Part shown: one piece after another, positions 3,096 to 18,069 of the stretch
Numbering within the stretch: the stretch's first letter is position 1
How the letters are laid out: the number at the start of each line of letters is the position of its first letter
Virus record (IMG/VR): IMGVR_UViG_3300005468_000363
Coordinates: 1-20,374 of that record
From: a virus
Length of the DNA: 20,374 bases
Direction: 5' to 3' (one strand)
Position numbers and translations under genes: made by a program
The notes under the pieces: model-generated
Told to the model about the DNA's origin: nothing
The model's input: the letters and a program-made list of their open reading frames with translations, nothing else
Database searches by the model: none

Positions 3096-3276
3096 CTCTC
3101 AGCCGTCCAGCAAAGTTTTGAACCGCCTCTAGTGGTCAGTCCACTTTGAAATTGCCAAGGCTCCTTTACAGCCCCATCTGCTTCCGACTCCTCAGAGACC
3201 GCGCGGTGTGCTATGTTGGGCGTAGCGACAGGTCAGCGGATACCACAGGGACGGTCCAAGGAAAGAGAGGCAGACC

Positions 3277-3792
3277 GTGCGCTATTTTGACCGCTTGCCG
3301 CCGCTCTTGCAGGTGGCATTCATCGTGGGGCTGCTGCTCTTACTCACGACAGCCGTAGTCGGCTTCTTTGCGCCCGTTCTGTGGGTCCTTGCGCTCGTTG
3401 CGAGCCAATCGTCTGCTTCCCCTCCCTGGTATATTGACCCCGTTCGCCTGTACGTCATACCAGCGAATCTCGGCATGCTCGGCGGGGCCTGTCAGTTTGC
3501 TGTGACCACGTACAGCCGGCGCTTTCGCCGGCCAGACCGGAGACCGTTCCCGCTGGATTCGTGGCAGAGCCAAGTGCGGGTCATCGCCCTGTTGGCAGCC
3601 TTGCCGCTCGGCGCGATCGTGGTGGTGCTGGTCCTCCCTCTGGGCTTGGTCCTCCCTCTGGGCTGGCCCGCCGACTTCCTCCCTATAGGGATCACCCTGC
3701 TCGCGTTGGGCGCGCTGCTGGCGGCATGCGTGTGGTTGATCTCCGTCGCGGTGCAGCAAGCGGCAGACCAACGTAAACACCAGGGGACTTGA
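3277..3792 (+). CDS. Integral membrane protein, unknown function
   Basis: 171 residues beginning with GTG behind an AAAGAGAGG site. Hydrophobic stretches at about 12-45, 60-80, 100-130 and 135-160 suggest four membrane segments. An Arg-rich loop (SRRFRRPDRRPF, near residue 80) is probably cytoplasmic. A perfect 18-bp tandem duplication near 3631-3666 encodes a doubled LVLPLG inside the third hydrophobic block, a likely slippage product. It ends 56 bp before the convergent terminase stop. Orientation and character match the membrane gene at 2760, so the two may be a cargo pair. I do not recognise the family. Confidence 0.65.
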   Translation: MRYFDRLPPLLQVAFIVGLLLLLTTAVVGFFAPVLWVLALVASQSSASPPWYIDPVRLYVIPANLGMLGGACQFAVTTYSRRFRRPDRRPFPLDSWQSQVRVIALLAALPLGAIVVVLVLPLGLVLPLGWPADFLPIGITLLALGALLAACVWLISVAVQQAADQRKHQGT

Positions 3793-8645: not shown

Positions 8646-10670
8646 ATGGAAACGCCTCGCACCGCGTCACGTGCGGATGCTCTTATCCATGTTTGGGATG
8701 CCAGTCAGGTATTCGTCCGGCTTGCACTGAGTCGTGATGATGCCGGCATGGTAGTACGCAGTCTCGTCGTGGAGGTCCTTCCCCAAATCTGGCTGTCTAA
8801 CCATGATGAGACGCTGCTTGCTCCGTGGCTGCAAGATCAATATCCGTTATTCAGCAGTTCCTACGCTGTCTTTTTCTGTGGCTTGCTCAAGAGCGAAATT
8901 GTGCGTGGGTGGTTCGAGCGACCAGAGGATTGTGGTCTGCAAGTCTTCGATGGCAGTCAATCAATCTCCGCCCTCAGGGTGCCATTCACGTTCCCTGAAG
9001 TCCATGACAATGTCACGGAGTGGCACCTACCTAGCTATTCACAGAACGCGGTCAAACCGATCCCGTATCCGAGTACACTATACACATTCACACCAAGGTC
9101 GCCTCACAACGGCCACTCCAGAGACGATGACCGATTAGTTAGCGAAGATGGCGACAGTATCCCGAGCTTCCGTATGACCCGCGCTGAGCTGATGTTTGGG
9201 GTAACAGACCGTAATCAGGCACACCAACGCGGTGACACTCTAGCGGTTCGTGTAGTGGATGCACGGGGGTGGCTCAAGCAGGTTCGCGTCACGCCGGAAA
9301 CGCTATTCGCTACGTTGGGTGGCACCGACCTTCTTCAGGGGTGTAAGGTCGTGGTGCAAGGCCAGACGGTGAATCAACGAGCACCAGTCACAAACCACCA
9401 TGTGTCTCTTCCACTCCCAGCTCGAATTACAGGTGAGGTAGAGGTTGCGCTGGTGGGCAAGGGAACAGTGCTCGACTCTGCATGGTTTTTCGGCACGGAT
9501 CACGCGTATCCGTATTTTTCGCGTTGCCCACACGTAATCGTCGAGCGTGAGGATGTCGTGGGATATAAGCCCCCAGCGAGCGCGGAGAACACCTCGTACT
9601 CACCGAATGACGTTTTGGCTAAGGAAGAGTTAGGGCAACCCCGGCCCAAGGTCTTTTTCAGCTACAGTCACGATTCCGAGGAGCACAACCAGAGAGTACG
9701 TGAACTTGCCAAGCGCCTGCGTCACGAAGGAATCGAGTGCAACATCGACCAATACGTGCCAAACCCACCCGAGGGCTGGCCACGATGGATGATGAAGCAG
9801 ATCAATTGGGCTGACTATGTGCTCGTGGTATGCACGGAAACCTATTGCCGGCGGTTTAACGAGCAAGAACAGCCAGGTAAGGGGCTGGGCGTGGCATGGG
9901 AGAGCCAGATCATTACCCAAACCCTCTATGAGCAAGCGGGAAATAACGACAAGTTCATTCCCGTTATCTTCTCGGACGAGGACTCTGTATACATTCCGAT
10001 GCCACTGCGTCCCCCAACCCGGTACAATCTCGCCGACGACGGGAAATACGAAGAACTGTACGCACGCTTAACCCATCAAACACTTATTGCCGTACCGCCG
10101 CTTGGCGAGATTAGGAAGTTGCCGCTTCAAGATGATGGCACGTCCAATCAGCGGAATGCACAACCACCTGTGCAAGCACAGCGGTTCGGATCTGAGGCAC
10201 AGCTCGTCCTGGGCTATCTTGTGCGCTCCTTTGGCCCTGAAGATAGCATGAGCCTGGATTCGCTGGCGCAAGCACTCGGCTTAGAGGTCGGCCAAAGCCT
10301 CACTGATGCGTTACACGAATTAGGAGACCTCGATGCCATCAAAGGTTATGGAAACGCTAGACACAAATATGACGTGTTCCAGGTGACCCCCCATGCATGG
10401 GAATATGTCGGCGCGAACACCGCTGGATTTGACGTCACACAGGATATGGTTGTAGTTGCGACGGCTGCCAGCAAGTATGACCAAGTTGACCGCGAGGAAC
10501 TACTCACGGAGACGGGCTTATCCTCAAAGAGGCTCGACATAGCAGCATTGCTTCTAGACGAACACGACTATCTCAAACTTGTCCGGCCAGGCGGGCGCGG
10601 AGTCATGTTTGCTACAGTCATTACGACGTACAAAACACGCCAGTTTGTTCAACGACACAAGGCGTTGTGA
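8646..10670 (+). CDS. SEFIR-domain protein with C-terminal winged-helix pair, probable antiphage defence
   Basis: 674 residues in three parts. Residues 1-330 are an uncharacterised globular region. Residues 335 to about 490 are a SEFIR/TIR-like domain. Its box 1 is KVFFSYSHDSEEH. It is followed by LAKRLRHEGIECNIDQY, EGWPRWMMKQINWADYVLVVC and GVAWESQII, the typical bacterial SEFIR succession. Residues 515-674 look like two winged helices (AQLVLGYLVRSFGPEDSMSLDSLAQAL and DREELLTETGLSSKRLDIAALLL). Bacterial SEFIR proteins have been reported to protect against phage by consuming NAD+; activity here is inferred. GC content is visibly lower than in the structural genes, and a 19-bp direct repeat brackets the gene, both suggesting separate acquisition. 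A GGAG site lies 12 bases before the ATG. No partner gene is evident. Confidence 0.85.
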   Translation: METPRTASRADALIHVWDASQVFVRLALSRDDAGMVVRSLVVEVLPQIWLSNHDETLLAPWLQDQYPLFSSSYAVFFCGLLKSEIVRGWFERPEDCGLQVFDGSQSISALRVPFTFPEVHDNVTEWHLPSYSQNAVKPIPYPSTLYTFTPRSPHNGHSRDDDRLVSEDGDSIPSFRMTRAELMFGVTDRNQAHQRGDTLAVRVVDARGWLKQVRVTPETLFATLGGTDLLQGCKVVVQGQTVNQRAPVTNHHVSLPLPARITGEVEVALVGKGTVLDSAWFFGTDHAYPYFSRCPHVIVEREDVVGYKPPASAENTSYSPNDVLAKEELGQPRPKVFFSYSHDSEEHNQRVRELAKRLRHEGIECNIDQYVPNPPEGWPRWMMKQINWADYVLVVCTETYCRRFNEQEQPGKGLGVAWESQIITQTLYEQAGNNDKFIPVIFSDEDSVYIPMPLRPPTRYNLADDGKYEELYARLTHQTLIAVPPLGEIRKLPLQDDGTSNQRNAQPPVQAQRFGSEAQLVLGYLVRSFGPEDSMSLDSLAQALGLEVGQSLTDALHELGDLDAIKGYGNARHKYDVFQVTPHAWEYVGANTAGFDVTQDMVVVATAASKYDQVDREELLTETGLSSKRLDIAALLLDEHDYLKLVRPGGRGVMFATVITTYKTRQFVQRHKAL

Positions 10671-13959: not shown

Positions 13960-13973
13960 GGAAAGGGGTACCC
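13960..13973 (+). promoter_or_regulatory. Shared translation signal GGAAAGGGGTACCC (gene A copy)
   Basis: The same signal precedes every array gene: 14365 (B), 14778 (C), 15169 (D, changed to GGGAAAGGGGGC), 15435 (E), 15764 (F), 16305 (G), 16722 (H), 17093 (I), and also the regulator gene outside the array (19542). It is a Shine-Dalgarno variant (AAAGG then GGT against AAAGGAGGT) fused to a conserved palindromic GGTACC. The late genes in this window use plain AAGGA sites instead. Confidence 0.75.
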
Positions 13974-13974
13974 G

Positions 13975-14250
13975 ATGTATTACGACGAGACGACCGTTAA
14001 CGACCTGCTGAGCAAGGCGCAAGAAATTGCGTTCCGTGCCATGACGGCAGCATACAAGCATCTGCCGGACGACGTGAAGAGCGAAGTATGGCACCTCATC
14101 ATGGACGAACACGCGGACGTGTTAGGCGAGATACGCGAGGAACTGGGCATAGAACTCTGCGAAGAGTGCGGCGAACTCCTGGACGCATGCGAGTGCGAAG
14201 AGGAAAGCGAAGAGGAAACCGAAGAGGCGACCGAAGAGGCGACCGCGTAA
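13975..14250 (+). CDS. Array gene A: small acidic protein with Cys motif
   Basis: 91 residues. Residues 1-58 are helical (LLSKAQEIAFRAMTAAYKHLPDDVKSEVWHLI is split by turns). Residues 61-75 hold CEECGELLDACEC, a C-x2-C-x6-C-x-C pattern able to bind zinc. The tail is a Glu/Thr/Ala repeat (EEETEEATEEATA) encoded by an imperfect GAAGAGGCGACC repeat. The start follows the shared GGAAAGGGGTACCC signal at one base. It is the first gene after the long control region. No ribozyme follows it; instead a 9-bp hairpin lies just after its stop. Function unknown; many small Cys-rich phage proteins bind host factors. Confidence 0.8.
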   Translation: MYYDETTVNDLLSKAQEIAFRAMTAAYKHLPDDVKSEVWHLIMDEHADVLGEIREELGIELCEECGELLDACECEEESEEETEEATEEATA

Positions 14251-14251
14251 G

Positions 14252-14280
14252 TCGCCGCTAGCTAGTAACCGTAGTGGCGA
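14252..14280 (+). ncRNA. Hairpin after gene A (TCGCCGCTA/TAGTGGCGA)
   Basis: A 9-bp stem with one G-U pair and an 11-base loop starts one base after the stop codon. There is no T-run, so it is more likely a 3'-end stability or processing element than a terminator. Confidence 0.5.
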
Positions 14281-14334
14281 GGGGAGATGTAAGCTTAGTC
14301 AACAATTCACGTTATTGCGAGTAGCTAGCAGACT

Positions 14335-14650
14335 GCTGGCTAGTCGTGCTGACAGGGGAGGCATGGGAAAGGGGTACCCGCATGCTTCCATCTCTGCCAC
14401 GTCTCGCGTATGTCGTGCCGTTGCGCTTCAGGCGCACGCGCACACTACAGCGCATGGCGTACAACCTCGTGACATTCCACTATCTCAACATCCGCCGCGA
14501 TACACTGCTCGCTAACAAGGTTATCACTGAGCTAGCGCGCAGGGGAGTAGCGGACTACCGGGAACCGCTCCACCCGAAAGGGTATGCGGCAGCGTTCGGC
14601 TACTAGTTAGCTAGGTAATGTCGCCTCCCCTGTCAGCAGGGCTAGTCAGC
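14335..14650. repeat. 28-nt inverted repeat enclosing gene B
   Basis: Left arm 14335-14362 and right arm 14623-14650 can pair at 27 of 28 positions. The inner 16 are perfect (TGCTGACAGGGGAGGC with its complement), followed by one G-G mismatch and 11 pairs including two G-U. The G-U pairs suggest the RNA duplex is what matters. The ribosome site and all of gene B lie inside. No target duplication is obvious. Confidence 0.7.
14382..14606 (+). CDS. Array gene B: small basic protein
   Basis: 74 residues from the ATG at 14382, two bases after the shared signal. A longer frame from 14346 would begin inside the inverted repeat and is rejected. It is Arg-rich (PLRFRRTRTLQRMAYNLV), followed by a helix LLANKVITELARRGVADY and a C-terminal PKGYAAAFGY. 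It has no Cys motif, unlike several neighbours. Composition suggests nucleic-acid or ribosome binding, but nothing specific is recognised. It is the only array gene flanked by a long inverted repeat rather than by ribozymes on both sides; the first ribozyme starts 110 bp after its stop. Confidence 0.7.
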   Translation: MLPSLPRLAYVVPLRFRRTRTLQRMAYNLVTFHYLNIRRDTLLANKVITELARRGVADYREPLHPKGYAAAFGY

Positions 14651-14716
14651 TCCCCACCCCGCGCAAGGATACGCGCGAGTGTAGCCGCAAGGATGCGAGC
14701 ACATATCCCCACACAT

Positions 14717-14768
14717 GCCGAAACGCGCAAGCGTCTAGCCGGTGTGCCCGTCCGGCTACTGATGAGGC
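14717..14768 (+). ncRNA. Type II hammerhead ribozyme 1 (between genes B and C)
   Basis: Stem II 3' strand GCC (14717-14719), GAAA (14720-14723), stem III CGC-GCAA-GCG closed by a GNRA loop plus the A-U pair, and cleavage expected after C14735 in GUC. Stem I is TAGCCGG/CCGGCTA (14736-14742 with 14752-14758), then CTGATGA (14759-14765) and stem II 5' strand GGC (14766-14768). The stem I loop GTGCCC (14744-14749) pairs perfectly with GGGCAC (14770-14775). Confidence 0.95.
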
Positions 14769-14796
14769 AGGGCACAAGGGAAAGGGGTACCCGAAA

Positions 14797-15099
14797 GTGG
14801 CAACAATCATCCTGCACAGTTTCCCGGACATGGGGTGCTATGCGGAGCATGACAGCGGCGCATGTTTCACGCTGGTTGACGGGTCTATATCGTGGCCCGA
14901 ATGGCCGGACGAGTGCGCATGCGGAGCTGAGTTGCCGGACGTGTGCGAGGGGGATTGTCCAGACTGCGGGGAACCGTACTGGCAGCTCATCGCAGAGTCG
15001 TGCAGCGAGTGCGGCGAGTACATCGAGCATGACGACACGTACTGGCTGTGCCTTGACGGAGGCGAGACCTATTGCCGGGATTGCATCTCCGTTGAGTGA
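14797..15099 (+). CDS. Array gene C: small Cys-rich zinc-ribbon protein
   Basis: 100 residues from a GTG four bases after the shared signal. Twelve Cys residues, most in pairs: CACG (45-48), CEGDCPDCG (54-62), CSECGEYIE and CLDGGETYCRDC near the C-terminus. These would make two to three zinc ribbons. The middle resembles a GxWPEWPDEC segment rich in Trp and acidic residues. The stop TGA is one base before the next ribozyme. Predicted to be an acidic zinc-binding adaptor, possibly an RNA-polymerase or ribosome binder; the partner is unknown. Confidence 0.82.
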   Translation: MATIILHSFPDMGCYAEHDSGACFTLVDGSISWPEWPDECACGAELPDVCEGDCPDCGEPYWQLIAESCSECGEYIEHDDTYWLCLDGGETYCRDCISVE

Positions 15100-15100
15100 C

Positions 15101-15158
15101 GCCGAAACGCGCAGGGACGCGCGTCTAGCTAGGCTGGCTACCTAGCTACTGATGAGGC
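15101..15158 (+). ncRNA. Type II hammerhead ribozyme 2 (between genes C and D)
   Basis: GCC (15101-15103), GAAA (15104-15107), stem III CGCGC/GCGCG with loop AGGGAC, and cleavage expected after C15125. Stem I is a perfect 8-bp TAGCTAGG/CCTAGCTA with loop CTGGCTA (15134-15140), then CTGATGA (15149-15155) and GGC (15156-15158). Loop GGCT (15136-15139) pairs with AGCC (15160-15163). Confidence 0.95.
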
Positions 15159-15184
15159 AAGCCGAGACGGGAAAGGGGGCAAGC

Positions 15185-15367
15185 GTGAGGAAGTATGTAG
15201 CAAGCGTGGGTATATTCCACGCGGGAACCGGCGCGTATGAGGCGCGGCAGCTCTGCTTACTCGCCACGACGGACGCGGAGGCGTACGCGGGCGCTAAGCG
15301 GGCTGTACAGCGGTGCGGGTCACTGAGGCACGCAACCGTGATTGTCCAGTATGTCGTGCCGATATAG
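15185..15367 (+). CDS. Array gene D: 60-residue protein
   Basis: 60 residues from the GTG at 15185. An in-frame ATG at 15152 lies inside the ribozyme core CTGATGA and is rejected. Its signal is the one divergent copy (GGGAAAGGGGGC). The sequence starts RKYVASVGIFHAGTGAYEAR and continues CLLATTDAEAYAGAKRAV, giving a strand-helix-strand pattern (V-rich ends) without Cys pairs. The last G of its TAG stop is the first base of the next ribozyme. Function unknown. Confidence 0.7.
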   Translation: MRKYVASVGIFHAGTGAYEARQLCLLATTDAEAYAGAKRAVQRCGSLRHATVIVQYVVPI

Positions 15368-15425
15368 CCGAAACCCGCAAGGATAGCGGGTCCTAGTGAG
15401 TTGGCTACTCGCTAGCTGATGAGGC
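15367..15425 (+). ncRNA. Type II hammerhead ribozyme 3 (between genes D and E)
   Basis: GCC (15367-15369, starting with the last base of the TAG stop), GAAA (15370-15373), stem III CCCGC/GCGGG with loop AAGGATA, and cleavage expected after C15392. Stem I is CTAGTGAG/CTCGCTAG (one U-G) with loop TTGGCTA (15401-15407), then CTGATGA (15416-15422) and GGC (15423-15425). Loop TTGGCT pairs with AGCCGA (15427-15432; includes one U-G). Confidence 0.95.
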
Positions 15426-15452
15426 AAGCCGAAAGGGAAAGGGGTACCTAAC

Positions 15453-15698
15453 ATGCAGGCATCGTCAATACCCGTGCGAGAGACGGGCGGACAGCTCCCC
15501 GCGTACGCGTGGCCGGGGGGATACCCGCTGTTTTACCTGGACAATCACGGGAGTGTGTTATGCGCGGACTGCGCAACGGACACGCTAGACGATGAGTACT
15601 CGGCGGAGTTGGTGGCATGCGACATCAACTATGAGGAACCGCTGATGTACTGCGACCAGTGCGATAAGCACATCGAACCGGCATACGGGGACGACTAG
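15453..15698 (+). CDS. Array gene E: small zinc-ribbon protein of a recurrent phage family
   Basis: 81 residues. The signature GGQLPAYAWPGGYPLFYL, then VLCADCA and MYCDQCDKHIEPAYGDD, resembles a small protein type I know from phage and bacterial genomes, with two CxxC pairs expected to hold one zinc. The cellular role of that type is unknown to me. The ATG follows the shared signal by four bases. The stop TAG shares its G with ribozyme 4. Recognition is from memory of the motif, not from a search. Confidence 0.82.
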   Translation: MQASSIPVRETGGQLPAYAWPGGYPLFYLDNHGSVLCADCATDTLDDEYSAELVACDINYEEPLMYCDQCDKHIEPAYGDD

Positions 15699-15754
15699 CC
15701 GAAACGCGCAGGGACGCGCGTCCGCGTGTATTGCCCGGCACGCGCTGATGAGGC
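15698..15754 (+). ncRNA. Type II hammerhead ribozyme 4 (between genes E and F)
   Basis: GCC (15698-15700), GAAA (15701-15704), stem III CGCGC/GCGCG with loop AGGGAC, and cleavage expected after C15722. Stem I is CGCGTG/CACGCG (15723-15728 with 15739-15744) with a 10-base loop, then CTGATGA (15745-15751) and GGC (15752-15754). Loop TGCCC (15732-15736) pairs with GGGCA (15756-15760). Confidence 0.95.
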
Positions 15755-15781
15755 AGGGCAGATGGAAAGGGGTACCCATCA

Positions 15782-16084
15782 ATGGCAAACCAGACGAGCG
15801 ACTATCCCACGTGGGCTATCGGATTGTGGATTGACAATGACGAGTGCTCACAAGAGACGGCGCTAGAGATAGCGCGCGAGCAATGGGAAGAGGCAGACGG
15901 GGACCGCGATACCGCAGTGTACCGGACTGCTGACCGTCTGAAGGACTGGCACGACGAGATGGTAGACATGCAGGACATGCACACTGGCCCGCTGTCCGAC
16001 CTCTTGTCGTGGGCACTCCAGCAGGTTGACTGGCACGAGCTGGCGAGCGGCTACGTTGATATGGTCCGCTCAGGCGACTACTAG
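15782..16084 (+). CDS. Array gene F: small acidic helical protein (YxTW...LWIDNDE family)
   Basis: 100 residues. The N-terminal pattern YPTWAIGLWIDNDECSQETALEIA and the C-terminal LLSWALQQVDWHELASGYV match a small phage/plasmid protein type I recall as a DUF (possibly DUF7249, not verified) in which a YxTWxxxLWIxND motif is followed by acidic helices. There are no Cys pairs. The ATG is four bases after the shared signal. It is followed by the longest spacer of the array (156 bp), which contains a structured 30-nt element before ribozyme 5. Function of the family is unknown to me. Confidence 0.8.
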   Translation: MANQTSDYPTWAIGLWIDNDECSQETALEIAREQWEEADGDRDTAVYRTADRLKDWHDEMVDMQDMHTGPLSDLLSWALQQVDWHELASGYVDMVRSGDY

Positions 16085-16091
16085 TCAGCCA

Positions 16092-16121
16092 GGGGGAGGC
16101 ACGGACGCCACACCCACCCCC
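16092..16121 (+). ncRNA. Structured 3' element after gene F (GGGGG...CCCCC with inner GGC/GCC)
   Basis: A 30-base element with the outer pair GGGGG/CCCCC and the inner hairpin GGC-ACGGAC-GCC. A near-identical 30-base copy follows gene I at 17455-17484. In both, similar sequence continues downstream (a GCAGGGACA block and then a GAAACTACGG block), so the repeated module is about 120 bases long. Confidence 0.6.
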
Positions 16122-16240
16122 CACGAAGGAAACCGCAGGGACACCCACCCCGCGCACACCCACACGCGCACACGCACCTCTTAGCGTGTCACTGACGCCG
16201 TGAAACCCGTGAAACTACGGCAGTCTACGGACCCTCGCAA

Positions 16241-16296
16241 GCCGAAACGCGCACACACGCGTCTAGTCAGCCTGGCTAGCTGGCTACTGAAGAGGC
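16241..16296 (+). ncRNA. Type II hammerhead ribozyme 5 (between genes F and G)
   Basis: GCC (16241-16243), GAAA (16244-16247), stem III CGCG/CGCG with loop CACACA, and cleavage expected after C16263. Stem I is TAGTCAGC/GCTGGCTA (one U-G) with loop CTGGCTA (16272-16278), then CTGAAGA (16287-16293; position 7 is the variable one in the consensus) and GGC (16294-16296). Loop TGGCT pairs with AGCCA (16298-16302). Confidence 0.94.
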
Positions 16297-16320
16297 AAGC
16301 CAACGGAAAGGGGTACCGAA

Positions 16321-16653
16321 GTGGGAAGCATCCTGGACGATGAGACGAGCTGGCGCGAGTACATGGCGGGCCAGATGGAAGTCTACCAGGCGGTGTACGG
16401 ACTATGGCCCCGCGTTGCCGCGATTGTGGGCGATGCCGAGCTGAAGTGTCTATCGTGCGCTGTCAAGGCGTACGGACCCGTCAAGGTGACGCAAGTCATG
16501 AACGGGGACGATACGGTCCTATCCCACGAAGGGGAGGCGCACGGGGGATATTTCCTCGGCGCCGTGCTACGCGGCAGCCAGGACCTCTACACGGAGGAGT
16601 CGGGCTTTACCGAGCCTGAGTGCTGCATGGCATGCGGGGAACCGCTCGCCTAG
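16321..16653 (+). CDS. Array gene G: small protein with two Cys pairs
   Basis: 110 residues from a GTG three bases after the shared signal. The N-terminal half is helical (SWREYMAGQMEVYQAVYGLWPRV is one long amphipathic region). CLSC (about 41-44) and CCMACGEP near the end are the candidate zinc ligands, widely separated around a region DTVLSHEGEAHGGYFLGAVL. The stop TAG shares its G with ribozyme 6. No known family recognised. A helix-plus-zinc-knuckle adaptor is a reasonable guess. Confidence 0.78.
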   Translation: MGSILDDETSWREYMAGQMEVYQAVYGLWPRVAAIVGDAELKCLSCAVKAYGPVKVTQVMNGDDTVLSHEGEAHGGYFLGAVLRGSQDLYTEESGFTEPECCMACGEPLA

Positions 16654-16712
16654 CCGAAACCCGCAGGGACGCGGGTCCGCGTGTAACTCCCCATATCGCG
16701 CGCTGATGAGGC
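16653..16712 (+). ncRNA. Type II hammerhead ribozyme 6 (between genes G and H)
   Basis: GCC (16653-16655), GAAA (16656-16659), stem III CCCGC/GCGGG with loop AGGGAC, and cleavage expected after C16677. Stem I is CGCGTG/CGCGCG (one U-G) with a 13-base loop, then CTGATGA (16703-16709) and GGC (16710-16712). Loop TCCCC (16688-16692) pairs with GGGGA (16715-16719), a different sequence from the other copies but still complementary. Confidence 0.95.
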
Positions 16713-16738
16713 ACGGGGAACGGGAAAGGGGTACCCGA

Positions 16739-17026
16739 GTGATGGTGCGAACAACAGGCGGTGTGCTGACTGAAAGGGCCGTAGGTATCTGCCCGGCGTG
16801 CGGTGAGGCTGTCTACAACTCAGCCGAGCTGGACGGGCCGGTGTGGACGTGCCGCACGGACCTCTCGCCACACAATGCGTGGTGGCTACCGTCTGAAGTC
16901 ACGGAGCGGGATATGGCGCGCGACGGGGTATGGAGCTACTGCCCGAATGACCACGGCGGGTATTGCTTCGAGCCTGAGACCCATATGCCGCTTCACGCAC
17001 GATGCTACGACGCCGGCAAGTATTAG
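16739..17026 (+). CDS. Array gene H: small Cys-rich protein
   Basis: 95 residues from the GTG at 16739; an ATG follows directly at 16742 and either could be used. The in-frame ATG at 16706 is in the ribozyme core and is rejected. CPACGEAVYNSAEL is a clear knuckle. Further Cys/His residues (WTCRTDLSPHNAWW, SYCPNDHGGYCF, HARCYD) would complete one or two zinc sites. Trp-rich. The last base of the TAG stop begins ribozyme 7. No specific family recognised. Confidence 0.78.
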   Translation: MMVRTTGGVLTERAVGICPACGEAVYNSAELDGPVWTCRTDLSPHNAWWLPSEVTERDMARDGVWSYCPNDHGGYCFEPETHMPLHARCYDAGKY

Positions 17027-17083
17027 CCGAAACCCGCACGGACGCGGGTCCCGTTGCGCTGGCTACGCAACGGCTGATGAGGC
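17026..17083 (+). ncRNA. Type II hammerhead ribozyme 7 (between genes H and I)
   Basis: GCC (17026-17028), GAAA (17029-17032), stem III CCCGC/GCGGG with loop ACGGAC, and cleavage expected after C17050. Stem I is a perfect 8-bp CCGTTGCG/CGCAACGG with loop CTGGCTA (17059-17065), then CTGATGA (17074-17080) and GGC (17081-17083). Loop TGGCT pairs with AGCCA (17085-17089). Confidence 0.95.
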
Positions 17084-17109
17084 AAGCCAAGTGGAAAGGG
17101 GTACCACGA

Positions 17110-17448
17110 ATGTCCGGTAAGTTGGTCGAGTTCTACAAGCTCGACGACGGCCGCCTACAGATCATGCTCACCCGTGAGGGCCGGGACGAGCTGAACTCAG
17201 ATGAGTTCACCTATCCTGACTTCGAGGAGATGATCGAGTGGCAGCTCTGCAACGGTTGGGAGTTCATCTGGCCCGAAGAGATTGGGGCACTCACGGACGC
17301 CCCAATCCTCAGCGATGCGGCAGAGCGCGACGACAAGGGCGTGCTAACCTCGGTCGGGCGCGTGTACTGGTACCCTCAGTATCAGGTACACAACCCGGTT
17401 GAGGAGCTGGACCGGCGCGTGTCCATCTACTTTCAAGAGGTGGACTAG
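17110..17448 (+). CDS. Array gene I: small conserved phage/plasmid-type protein
   Basis: 112 residues, the last gene of the array. The sequence GKLVEFYKLDDGRLQIMLT, then GWEFIWPEEIGALTDAPILSD and GRVYWYPQYQVHNPVEELD, resembles a small family I have seen in phage and bacterial accessory regions; its function is unknown to me. It has no Cys pairs. The start follows the shared signal by four bases. No complete ribozyme follows; instead comes a second copy of the 30-base GGGGG...CCCCC element, then a short GCCGAACGCGG that may be a ribozyme remnant (17587-17597). Confidence 0.82.
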   Translation: MSGKLVEFYKLDDGRLQIMLTREGRDELNSDEFTYPDFEEMIEWQLCNGWEFIWPEEIGALTDAPILSDAAERDDKGVLTSVGRVYWYPQYQVHNPVEELDRRVSIYFQEVD

Positions 17449-17454
17449 CGCCAC

Positions 17455-17484
17455 GGGGGCGGCATGGATGCCACACCCACCCCC
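17455..17484 (+). ncRNA. Second copy of the structured 30-base 3' element (after gene I)
   Basis: GGGGG/CCCCC outer pair with inner GGCA-TGGA-TGCC. Compared with the copy at 16092 the inner stem gains a pair through A-T where the other has A-C. Similar sequence continues to about 17590. A TTTTT run at 17530-17534 lies within this tail, but the stem before it is poor, so a terminator is only possible. Confidence 0.6.
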
Positions 17485-17634
17485 ATATAGAGGAATAGCA
17501 GGGACAACAGACGGCCGTTTGCGCGCCCGTTTTTCCCCGATACGTCATGGAGAGCAAAAGTGCGTGAAATTGGGGAAACTACGGAGCCGAACGCGGAGGA
17601 TGTTTCTGGAACTGCAATAGGCGGATGCTCGGGC

Positions 17635-18069
17635 CTATGCGCCGCGCTTGCTGAGGTCAAGCAGCCACTTGCGCTGCTCCTCCAGGTCGGGATCGCGGTC
17701 CTTGCCGGCAGCCTGGCGAGCCTTGCGGGTGACTGATAGTTGCTCCATAAGCGCGCGGTACTGGGTGAGTGGGTGCTGGCGGGCCATCGACACAAGCTCC
17801 TTGGTCGCCATCTCGCCCTGGAGCATGCGCAGATACTTGACGAACTCGGCCGAGGCCATGAGCAGCGTGATCCGGTCGGTCTCGGTGAGGTCGGGGTATT
17901 CCTCTATATAGGCGCCGAAGTGGTAGTCGAACCACGACCGCTCGTAATCGTCCATGTGGAGGTTGGGCATGCGGGGCATCTTGGGCTTGGGTGGACGGCC
18001 GGTGCGGGGGGACTCGTCGAGGGGCATGAGGGCGGTCACGGTGAGCTTGTCAGCGGGTTGGCGGGGCAT
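17635..18069 (-). CDS. terS: Putative terminase small subunit
   Basis: 144 residues. The N-terminal RPPKPKMPRMPNL is basic and Pro-rich. Residues 40-130 form helices (LTETDRITLLMASAEFVKYLRMLQGEM, then HPLTQYRALMEQLSVTRKARQAAG), which resembles P27-like small terminases, where a helical core follows a basic tail and an HPxxxxxR segment precedes the final helices. Small subunits bind the packaging start site and regulate TerL. Doubts: it is 12 kb from terL, and the assignment rests on pattern alone. A GGAG lies 12 bases before the ATG. It converges on the ribozyme array. Confidence 0.45.
   Translation of the reverse strand: MPRQPADKLTVTALMPLDESPRTGRPPKPKMPRMPNLHMDDYERSWFDYHFGAYIEEYPDLTETDRITLLMASAEFVKYLRMLQGEMATKELVSMARQHPLTQYRALMEQLSVTRKARQAAGKDRDPDLEEQRKWLLDLSKRGA

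Follow-up and report, generated by a model that had tools for sequence, protein, structure and literature searches.

Seven type II hammerhead ribozymes, one ahead of each of seven small genes, in an operon of a probable Chloroflexota phage

The window analyzed here is the full IMG/VR virus record IMGVR_UViG_3300005468_000363 (20,374 bases), which encodes a portal protein, a large terminase, a CHAP hydrolase, and a Cro/CI-type regulator. Within 2.4 kb of its forward strand (14716-17091) we found seven type II hammerhead ribozymes (HHR-II), which are placed between co-oriented genes and precede, one each, seven consecutive small genes that we refer to as o1 to o7 (Table 1). Together with two further genes, these make up an operon (13975-17448) that we infer to be a single transcription unit. 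An earlier note on this DNA had placed one ribozyme between each pair of consecutive genes, and this is correct for the last eight genes, but at its 5' end the operon carries two additional genes that have no ribozyme between them. The products of o1 to o7 are short (60-112 aa) and have no significant similarity to one another. A tandem DNA repeat of a gene plus its ribozyme was also considered, and was ruled out by this lack of mutual similarity.

In all seven copies the CUGANGA and GAAA segments of the catalytic core and the conserved pairs that close it are present, stems I and III are closed, and stem II is open. Their elements follow the permuted order GCC-GAAA, closed stem III, GUC, closed stem I, CUGANGA, GGC, as the earlier note had read them. 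The NUH cleavage triplet that separates stem III from stem I is GUC in every copy, and the predicted cleavage sites (Table 1) are spaced 390, 267, 330, 541, 414, and 373 nt apart, in exact agreement with the positions and fragment sizes first proposed. Each copy also matches the Rfam Hammerhead_II model (RF02276) on the forward strand, with E-values between 4.6e-5 and 0.052. Two exceed the model's gathering score of 37 bits, which is a curation threshold rather than a structural feature, and the other five score 28.0-36.4 bits. Scores below threshold for most copies had been named in advance as a result that would speak against the hammerheads; five of the seven do fall short, but covariation, described below, is decisive in favor of all of them. 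The low scores would also fit a chance likeness to hammerheads in common intergenic hairpins or repeats. However, a strict core pattern gave seven matches on the forward strand, none on the reverse strand, and none in 200 dinucleotide shuffles, and these results together with the covariation, which extends to a pseudoknot, rule out chance resemblance; we regard that explanation as refuted on sequence grounds.

To assess constraint on the fold, we aligned the seven copies and counted the pairs expected from the hammerhead structure, to which we added a pseudoknot between loop I and the 3' tail that was absent from the earlier description. Over the seven copies 96.1% of cells pair, compared to 76% when partners are shuffled and 28-36% when they are slid along the alignment. 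Two-sided changes occur in 13 of 22 pairs, among them all eight stem I pairs and four of the five pseudoknot pairs, bearing out the proposal that stems I and III keep their pairing while differing in sequence. The pseudoknot, a feature of many but not all type II hammerheads, is present in every copy with 4-7 Watson-Crick pairs, and it comes in three matched versions (UGGCU/AGCC in four copies, GCCC/GGGC in two, and UCCCC/GGGGA in one). Because of the excess of paired cells, the two-sided changes, and these matched versions, selection on the fold is visible within the window alone. Stem II (GCC/GGC, 3 bp), in contrast to the varying stems, is identical in all seven copies.

Table 1. Hammerhead ribozymes and genes of the operon, with predicted cleavage sites and RF02276 scores.
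Feature	Position	Strand	Details
Gene 1 of operon	13975..14250	+	Ribosome-binding cassette GGAAAGGGGTACC at 13960; without ribozyme
Gene 2 of operon	14382..14606	+	Same cassette at 14366; no ribozyme ahead
HHR-II copy 1	14716..14776	+	Cleavage after C14735 (predicted); pseudoknot UGUGCCC/GGGCACA; 36.1 bits
o1	14797..15099	+	Small Cys-rich protein of 100 aa; matches no family above cut-off
HHR-II copy 2	15100..15167	+	Cleavage after C15125 (predicted); pseudoknot UGGCU/AGCCG; 37.5 bits
o2	15185..15367	+	60 aa; UAG stop, G common to copy 3
HHR-II copy 3	15366..15434	+	Cleavage after C15392 (predicted); pseudoknot UGGCU/AGCCG; 36.4 bits
o3	15453..15698	+	81 aa; phrog_18452 relative, E 1.1e-8; UAG stop, G common to copy 4
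HHR-II copy 4	15697..15762	+	Cleavage after C15722 (predicted); pseudoknot UUGCCC/GGGCAG; 39.6 bits
o4	15782..16084	+	100 aa; weak phrog_871 / DUF7249 match
HHR-II copy 5	16240..16304	+	Core CUGAAGA (variable position 7 = A); cleavage after C16263 (predicted); 30.9 bits
o5	16321..16653	+	110 aa; UAG stop, G common to copy 6
HHR-II copy 6	16652..16720	+	Cleavage after C16677 (predicted); pseudoknot UCCCC/GGGGA; 28.0 bits
o6	16742..17026	+	94 aa; ATG 16742, alternative GTG 16739; UAG stop, G common to copy 7
HHR-II copy 7	17025..17091	+	Cleavage after C17050 (predicted); pseudoknot UGGCU/AGCCA; 35.5 bits
o7	17110..17448	+	112 aa; final operon gene

The placement of the ribozymes is equally regular. 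All seven lie directly ahead of the next gene's ribosome-binding cassette on the correct strand, with the ribosome-binding site (GGAAAGGGG) 8-11 nt 3' of the ribozyme and the pseudoknot tail ending 2-5 nt short of it. At four sites (copies 3, 4, 6, and 7) the first base of the ribozyme is the G of the upstream UAG stop codon (UAGCCGAAAC), while copy 5 begins 156 nt past the stop codon of o4. The first two operon genes have the same ribosome-binding cassette (GGAAAGGGGTACC) with no intervening ribozyme, and cassette and ribozyme are therefore separable. Two further repeats were observed in and around the operon. The gap ahead of copy 5 contains one unit of a weakly foldable 52-nt repeat (GGGGG..GGC..GCCACACCCACCCCC), the two units of which are 77% identical and lie on the forward strand after o4 (16092-16143) and after o7 (17455-17506), separating o1-o4 from o5-o7 as though each unit closed a sub-block of the operon. 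A 28-nt inverted repeat with 89% complementarity (14335-14362 and 14623-14650) flanks gene 2 on either side. Its RNA could loop out this gene entirely, and perhaps the looped-out RNA is a substrate for a double-strand-cutting nuclease that takes the place of a ribozyme.

The best explanation for the array, and one that we consider likely, is that the seven ribozymes cut the operon mRNA into single-gene pieces, which agrees with the protein-free processing role put forward in the earlier note. The operon would be transcribed as one RNA, and each HHR-II would cut itself during or shortly after transcription, so that the first two genes would remain together on a 5' piece, the next six would each be on an internal piece of their own with the lengths of the spacings given above, and the last gene would be alone on a 3' piece. 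A type II cut is expected to fall between two closed hairpins. The upstream mRNA would thus carry the stem III hairpin and a 2',3'-cyclic phosphate at its 3' end, and a 5'-hydroxyl and the stem I hairpin would form the start of the downstream mRNA, ahead of the ribosome-binding site. Because the 3-bp stem II alone would join the products, they should part quickly, with release favored over religation. The likely benefit would be a set of single-gene mRNAs with hairpins at both ends and without a 5'-phosphate, which would be expected to decay more slowly in the host, and each gene would be uncoupled from its neighbors. Terminal hairpins and a 5'-hydroxyl should hinder both the 5'-monophosphate-dependent endonucleases and the 3' exonucleases of bacterial mRNA decay.

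In favor of this processing role are the complete and covarying fold of all seven copies, their constant strand and place, the recurrence of such arrays described below, and the cleavage of natural tandem prophage hammerheads both in vitro and inside E. coli cells (PMC3088659). Several points weigh against it. The transcripts of this phage and their cleavage are both predictions from sequence, and a simple scan of the operon surroundings recognized no promoter or convincing terminator of simple kinds. Energy-based folding without the pseudoknot favors another fold for copies 1 and 6, most folding energies are no lower than for shuffled sequence, and free-energy z-scores were uninformative; such folding is less informative here because the pseudoknot cannot be included. 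Lastly, terminase relatives with 56-60% identity are present in three genomes sampled from the same phylum as a Tepidiformaceae (Chloroflexota) genome, all with the order terS, a 10-13 kb stretch, terL, and portal, and these three closest relatives by terminase have no comparable array (best match 22.5 bits, E 0.05). The array is therefore not essential to the phage lineage.

Arrays of this kind are not confined to the window. A strict HHR-II pattern matched at least 120 stretches in a viral contig collection, and a scan of the full records behind them with RF02276 identified arrays of 3-11 copies in at least about 20 other viral contigs among the matches listed, such as records with 11 (G065), 9 (G136), 7 (G072 and G053), and 5 copies (G074 and G016). 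We then surveyed these sequences with a model built from the seven window copies, which match it by construction and for which E-values are rough. Among the matches listed, this model gave 114 copies, a few of them weak, at 26 loci including the window, and three loci held longer arrays than the window (11 copies at L157 in G065, 10 at L159 in G053, and 9 at L173 in G136). Most of the 26 loci were picked for holding several copies and they may be related to one another, meaning that array frequencies are not population estimates and counts are not independent. Over 113 distinct copies from the 26 loci 96.7% of cells are paired, in an alignment that was fitted to the model and leans towards structure, and within each locus all copies lie on a single strand. 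Watson-Crick pseudoknots of 4 bp or more are present in 55 of 103 copies, compared to a mean of 15.7 (maximum 24) after swapping of the tails. Using a simple home-made gene caller that makes visible errors (it calls genes that overlap 9 of the 114 ribozymes by more than 20 nt), we found exactly one gene in 52 of the 88 intervals between consecutive ribozymes, including 6/6 in the window, 9/10 at L157, and 3/3 at L180. The median gap between neighboring genes is 91 nt with an intervening HHR and 4 nt without one. The core combined with the window's ribosome-binding cassette was found in no contig of the viral contig collection, and blastn of one copy against cultured phages returned only chance-level matches.

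The survey also showed a close association with stop codons. The end of the upstream stop codon falls between -3 and +1 of the first base of the ribozyme in 67 of 114 copies, and in 38 of them, spread over about 12 of the 26 loci, it falls at 0 or +1, abutting the ribozyme or overlapping it by one base, compared to about 0.4-0.8% per offset in a control. The stop-overlapping form was found in 44 bacterial or archaeal contigs as well, including Streptomyces isolates, Blautia sp. An249, and many gut Clostridia. A contig assigned to a Lokiarchaeota metagenome-assembled genome (JABXKD010000121.1, locus L199, 806-2013) carries three HHR-II in a run of small genes that by eye seem to encode a ubiquitin-like/ThiS protein, a JAB-like protein, and a ThiF-like protein, with one ribozyme starting no more than 3 nt from the stop codon of the ubiquitin-like gene; this may be a virus contig that was binned with an archaeon.

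This association raises the possibility, which we hold only tentatively, that ribosome traffic decides when a message is cut, with each ribozyme interlocked with the stop codon before it and the ribosome-binding site after it. A terminating ribosome has a footprint of about 12-15 nt downstream. Where the stop codon abuts or overlaps the ribozyme, it would cover stem II, the GAAA core, and part of stem III, and cutting would then take place only with the upstream gene untranslated or between ribosomes, so that mainly poorly translated messages would be cut. The one-base overlap at four of the seven window sites, the frequency of abutting or overlapping stops across loci, and the pseudoknot tail that stops just short of the ribosome-binding site are all consistent with this. 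However, compact phage genomes would push any intergenic element against a stop codon, as the 4-nt median gap between genes without an HHR illustrates, and copies 1 and 5 of the window do not lie close to a stop codon, nor do many elsewhere. Because genome compaction explains the spacing equally well, we consider such gating unlikely. If it were true, these arrays would represent a general, protein-free, translation-sensing form of mRNA segmentation in environmental phages.

The relationships among copies bear on another explanation, namely that the ribozymes spread among phage genes as selfish or neutral hitch-hikers and bring the operon no benefit. For 77 of 114 copies the nearest copy comes from the same contig, compared to 4.8 by permutation, and arrays thus seem to grow within a genome, though the genes that they separate in the window are unrelated. 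Both this pattern and the lack of an array in the closest prophage relatives would be expected of such elements. Yet every varying stem and the pseudoknot show compensatory change, and the copies have a fixed orientation and a fixed place before the ribosome-binding site, which argues for selection for activity in mRNA and makes hitch-hiking improbable.

Lastly, the constancy of stem II in the window, where stems I and III and the pseudoknot vary, could be read as a sign of RNA circularization or exchange. All pairings except stem II lie inside one cleavage product, and the 3' end from one copy might thus dock on the 5' end of another and be religated, producing circular single-gene RNAs or reshuffled messages. 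Cross-copy stem II compatibility within loci is 79%, and hammerhead-flanked RNAs are known to circularize in retrozymes (PMC7761336). However, a stem of 3 bp should let the products separate, its invariance may reflect just the recent common origin of the copies, and a search by Perreault et al. for spliced or circular RNAs from bacterial arrays was negative (PMC3088659). We regard this as the least probable of the alternatives that keep the hammerheads as real, slightly behind hitch-hiking, and return to the processing of mRNA into single-gene pieces as the preferred explanation.

In the wider window, the array is flanked on one side by a likely small terminase gene (17635-18069) and on the other by the large terminase gene, on the opposite strand. 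The small terminase call is a weak family match with a relative at the matching place in the prophages, and a search with the terminase gave no contig in the viral contig collection. From this context we infer that the array is part of a variable cargo or accessory region of a Chloroflexota phage; the phage is probably temperate, and its presumed host is probably a member of the Chloroflexota. The cargo region also encodes a 674-aa protein with a SEFIR/TIR-like domain (8646-10670, forward strand; Pfam SEFIR, E 2.3e-14), a possible defense or signaling gene. Relatives of o3 were found at 29 viral loci, mostly without HHRs; two loci have them, and at one locus (L168) the relative (3194-3391) lies within an HHR-bounded block. 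The o3 family bears the label "DNA ligase" in PHROGs and some phage records, which is doubtful for a protein of 81 aa.

The earlier note had regarded an array that separates the genes of an operon as not a standard described arrangement, but this does not hold. Clustered hammerheads flanking single genes in prophages were reported by Perreault et al. in 2011, with examples in Agrobacterium tumefaciens (the ardA triple), Clostridium scindens, and Azorhizobium caulinodans; three such transcripts cleaved in vitro and one in E. coli, and processing into single-gene mRNAs was the proposed role (PMC3088659). A 2017 review also describes hammerheads that are often close together and flank small non-conserved ORFs, and calls their roles in bacteria and phages open (PMC6155905), and a 2023 paper found bacterial self-cleaving ribozymes to be enriched near other ribozymes for reasons unknown. 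Our survey, with its many comparable arrays, puts numbers on what had been documented case by case: environmental phage contigs readily yield arrays of 3-11 copies, in which most intervals hold a single gene and contact with a stop codon is frequent. The main text of Perreault et al. does not mention stop codons, ribosomes, or translation, and we found no description of the one-per-gene frequency or the stop codon overlap in the open-licence literature, though one may exist elsewhere. An operon with seven ribozymes of the same style, one per gene, is also a compact system in which each could be inactivated by a single base change, allowing the effect on the mRNA and protein of that gene to be measured.

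Compared with other known systems, the window copies share with RF02276 the full order of elements and the pseudoknot tail, and differ in their 3-bp GCC/GGC stem II and in the five scores below the gathering score. The HDV-like theta ribozymes of gut phages are likewise self-cleaving ribozymes within phage transcripts, but they belong to another class and are reported to be tied to tRNA-based recoding rather than to the separation of genes in mRNA (PMC10879173). The closest likeness is to the clusters of Perreault et al., which are type II with a loop I/tail pseudoknot, have at least two hammerheads flanking phage genes in one transcription unit, and were proposed to process mRNA to gene length; cutting of the polycistronic RNA at several sites was shown for those arrays. 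What sets the present array apart is that seven type II copies of one style follow each other in 2.4 kb, with exactly one for each gene, that stop codons overlap the ribozymes, that the genes have a common ribosome-binding cassette, and that its activity is a prediction. It is an unusually regular and clean case of an already described arrangement.

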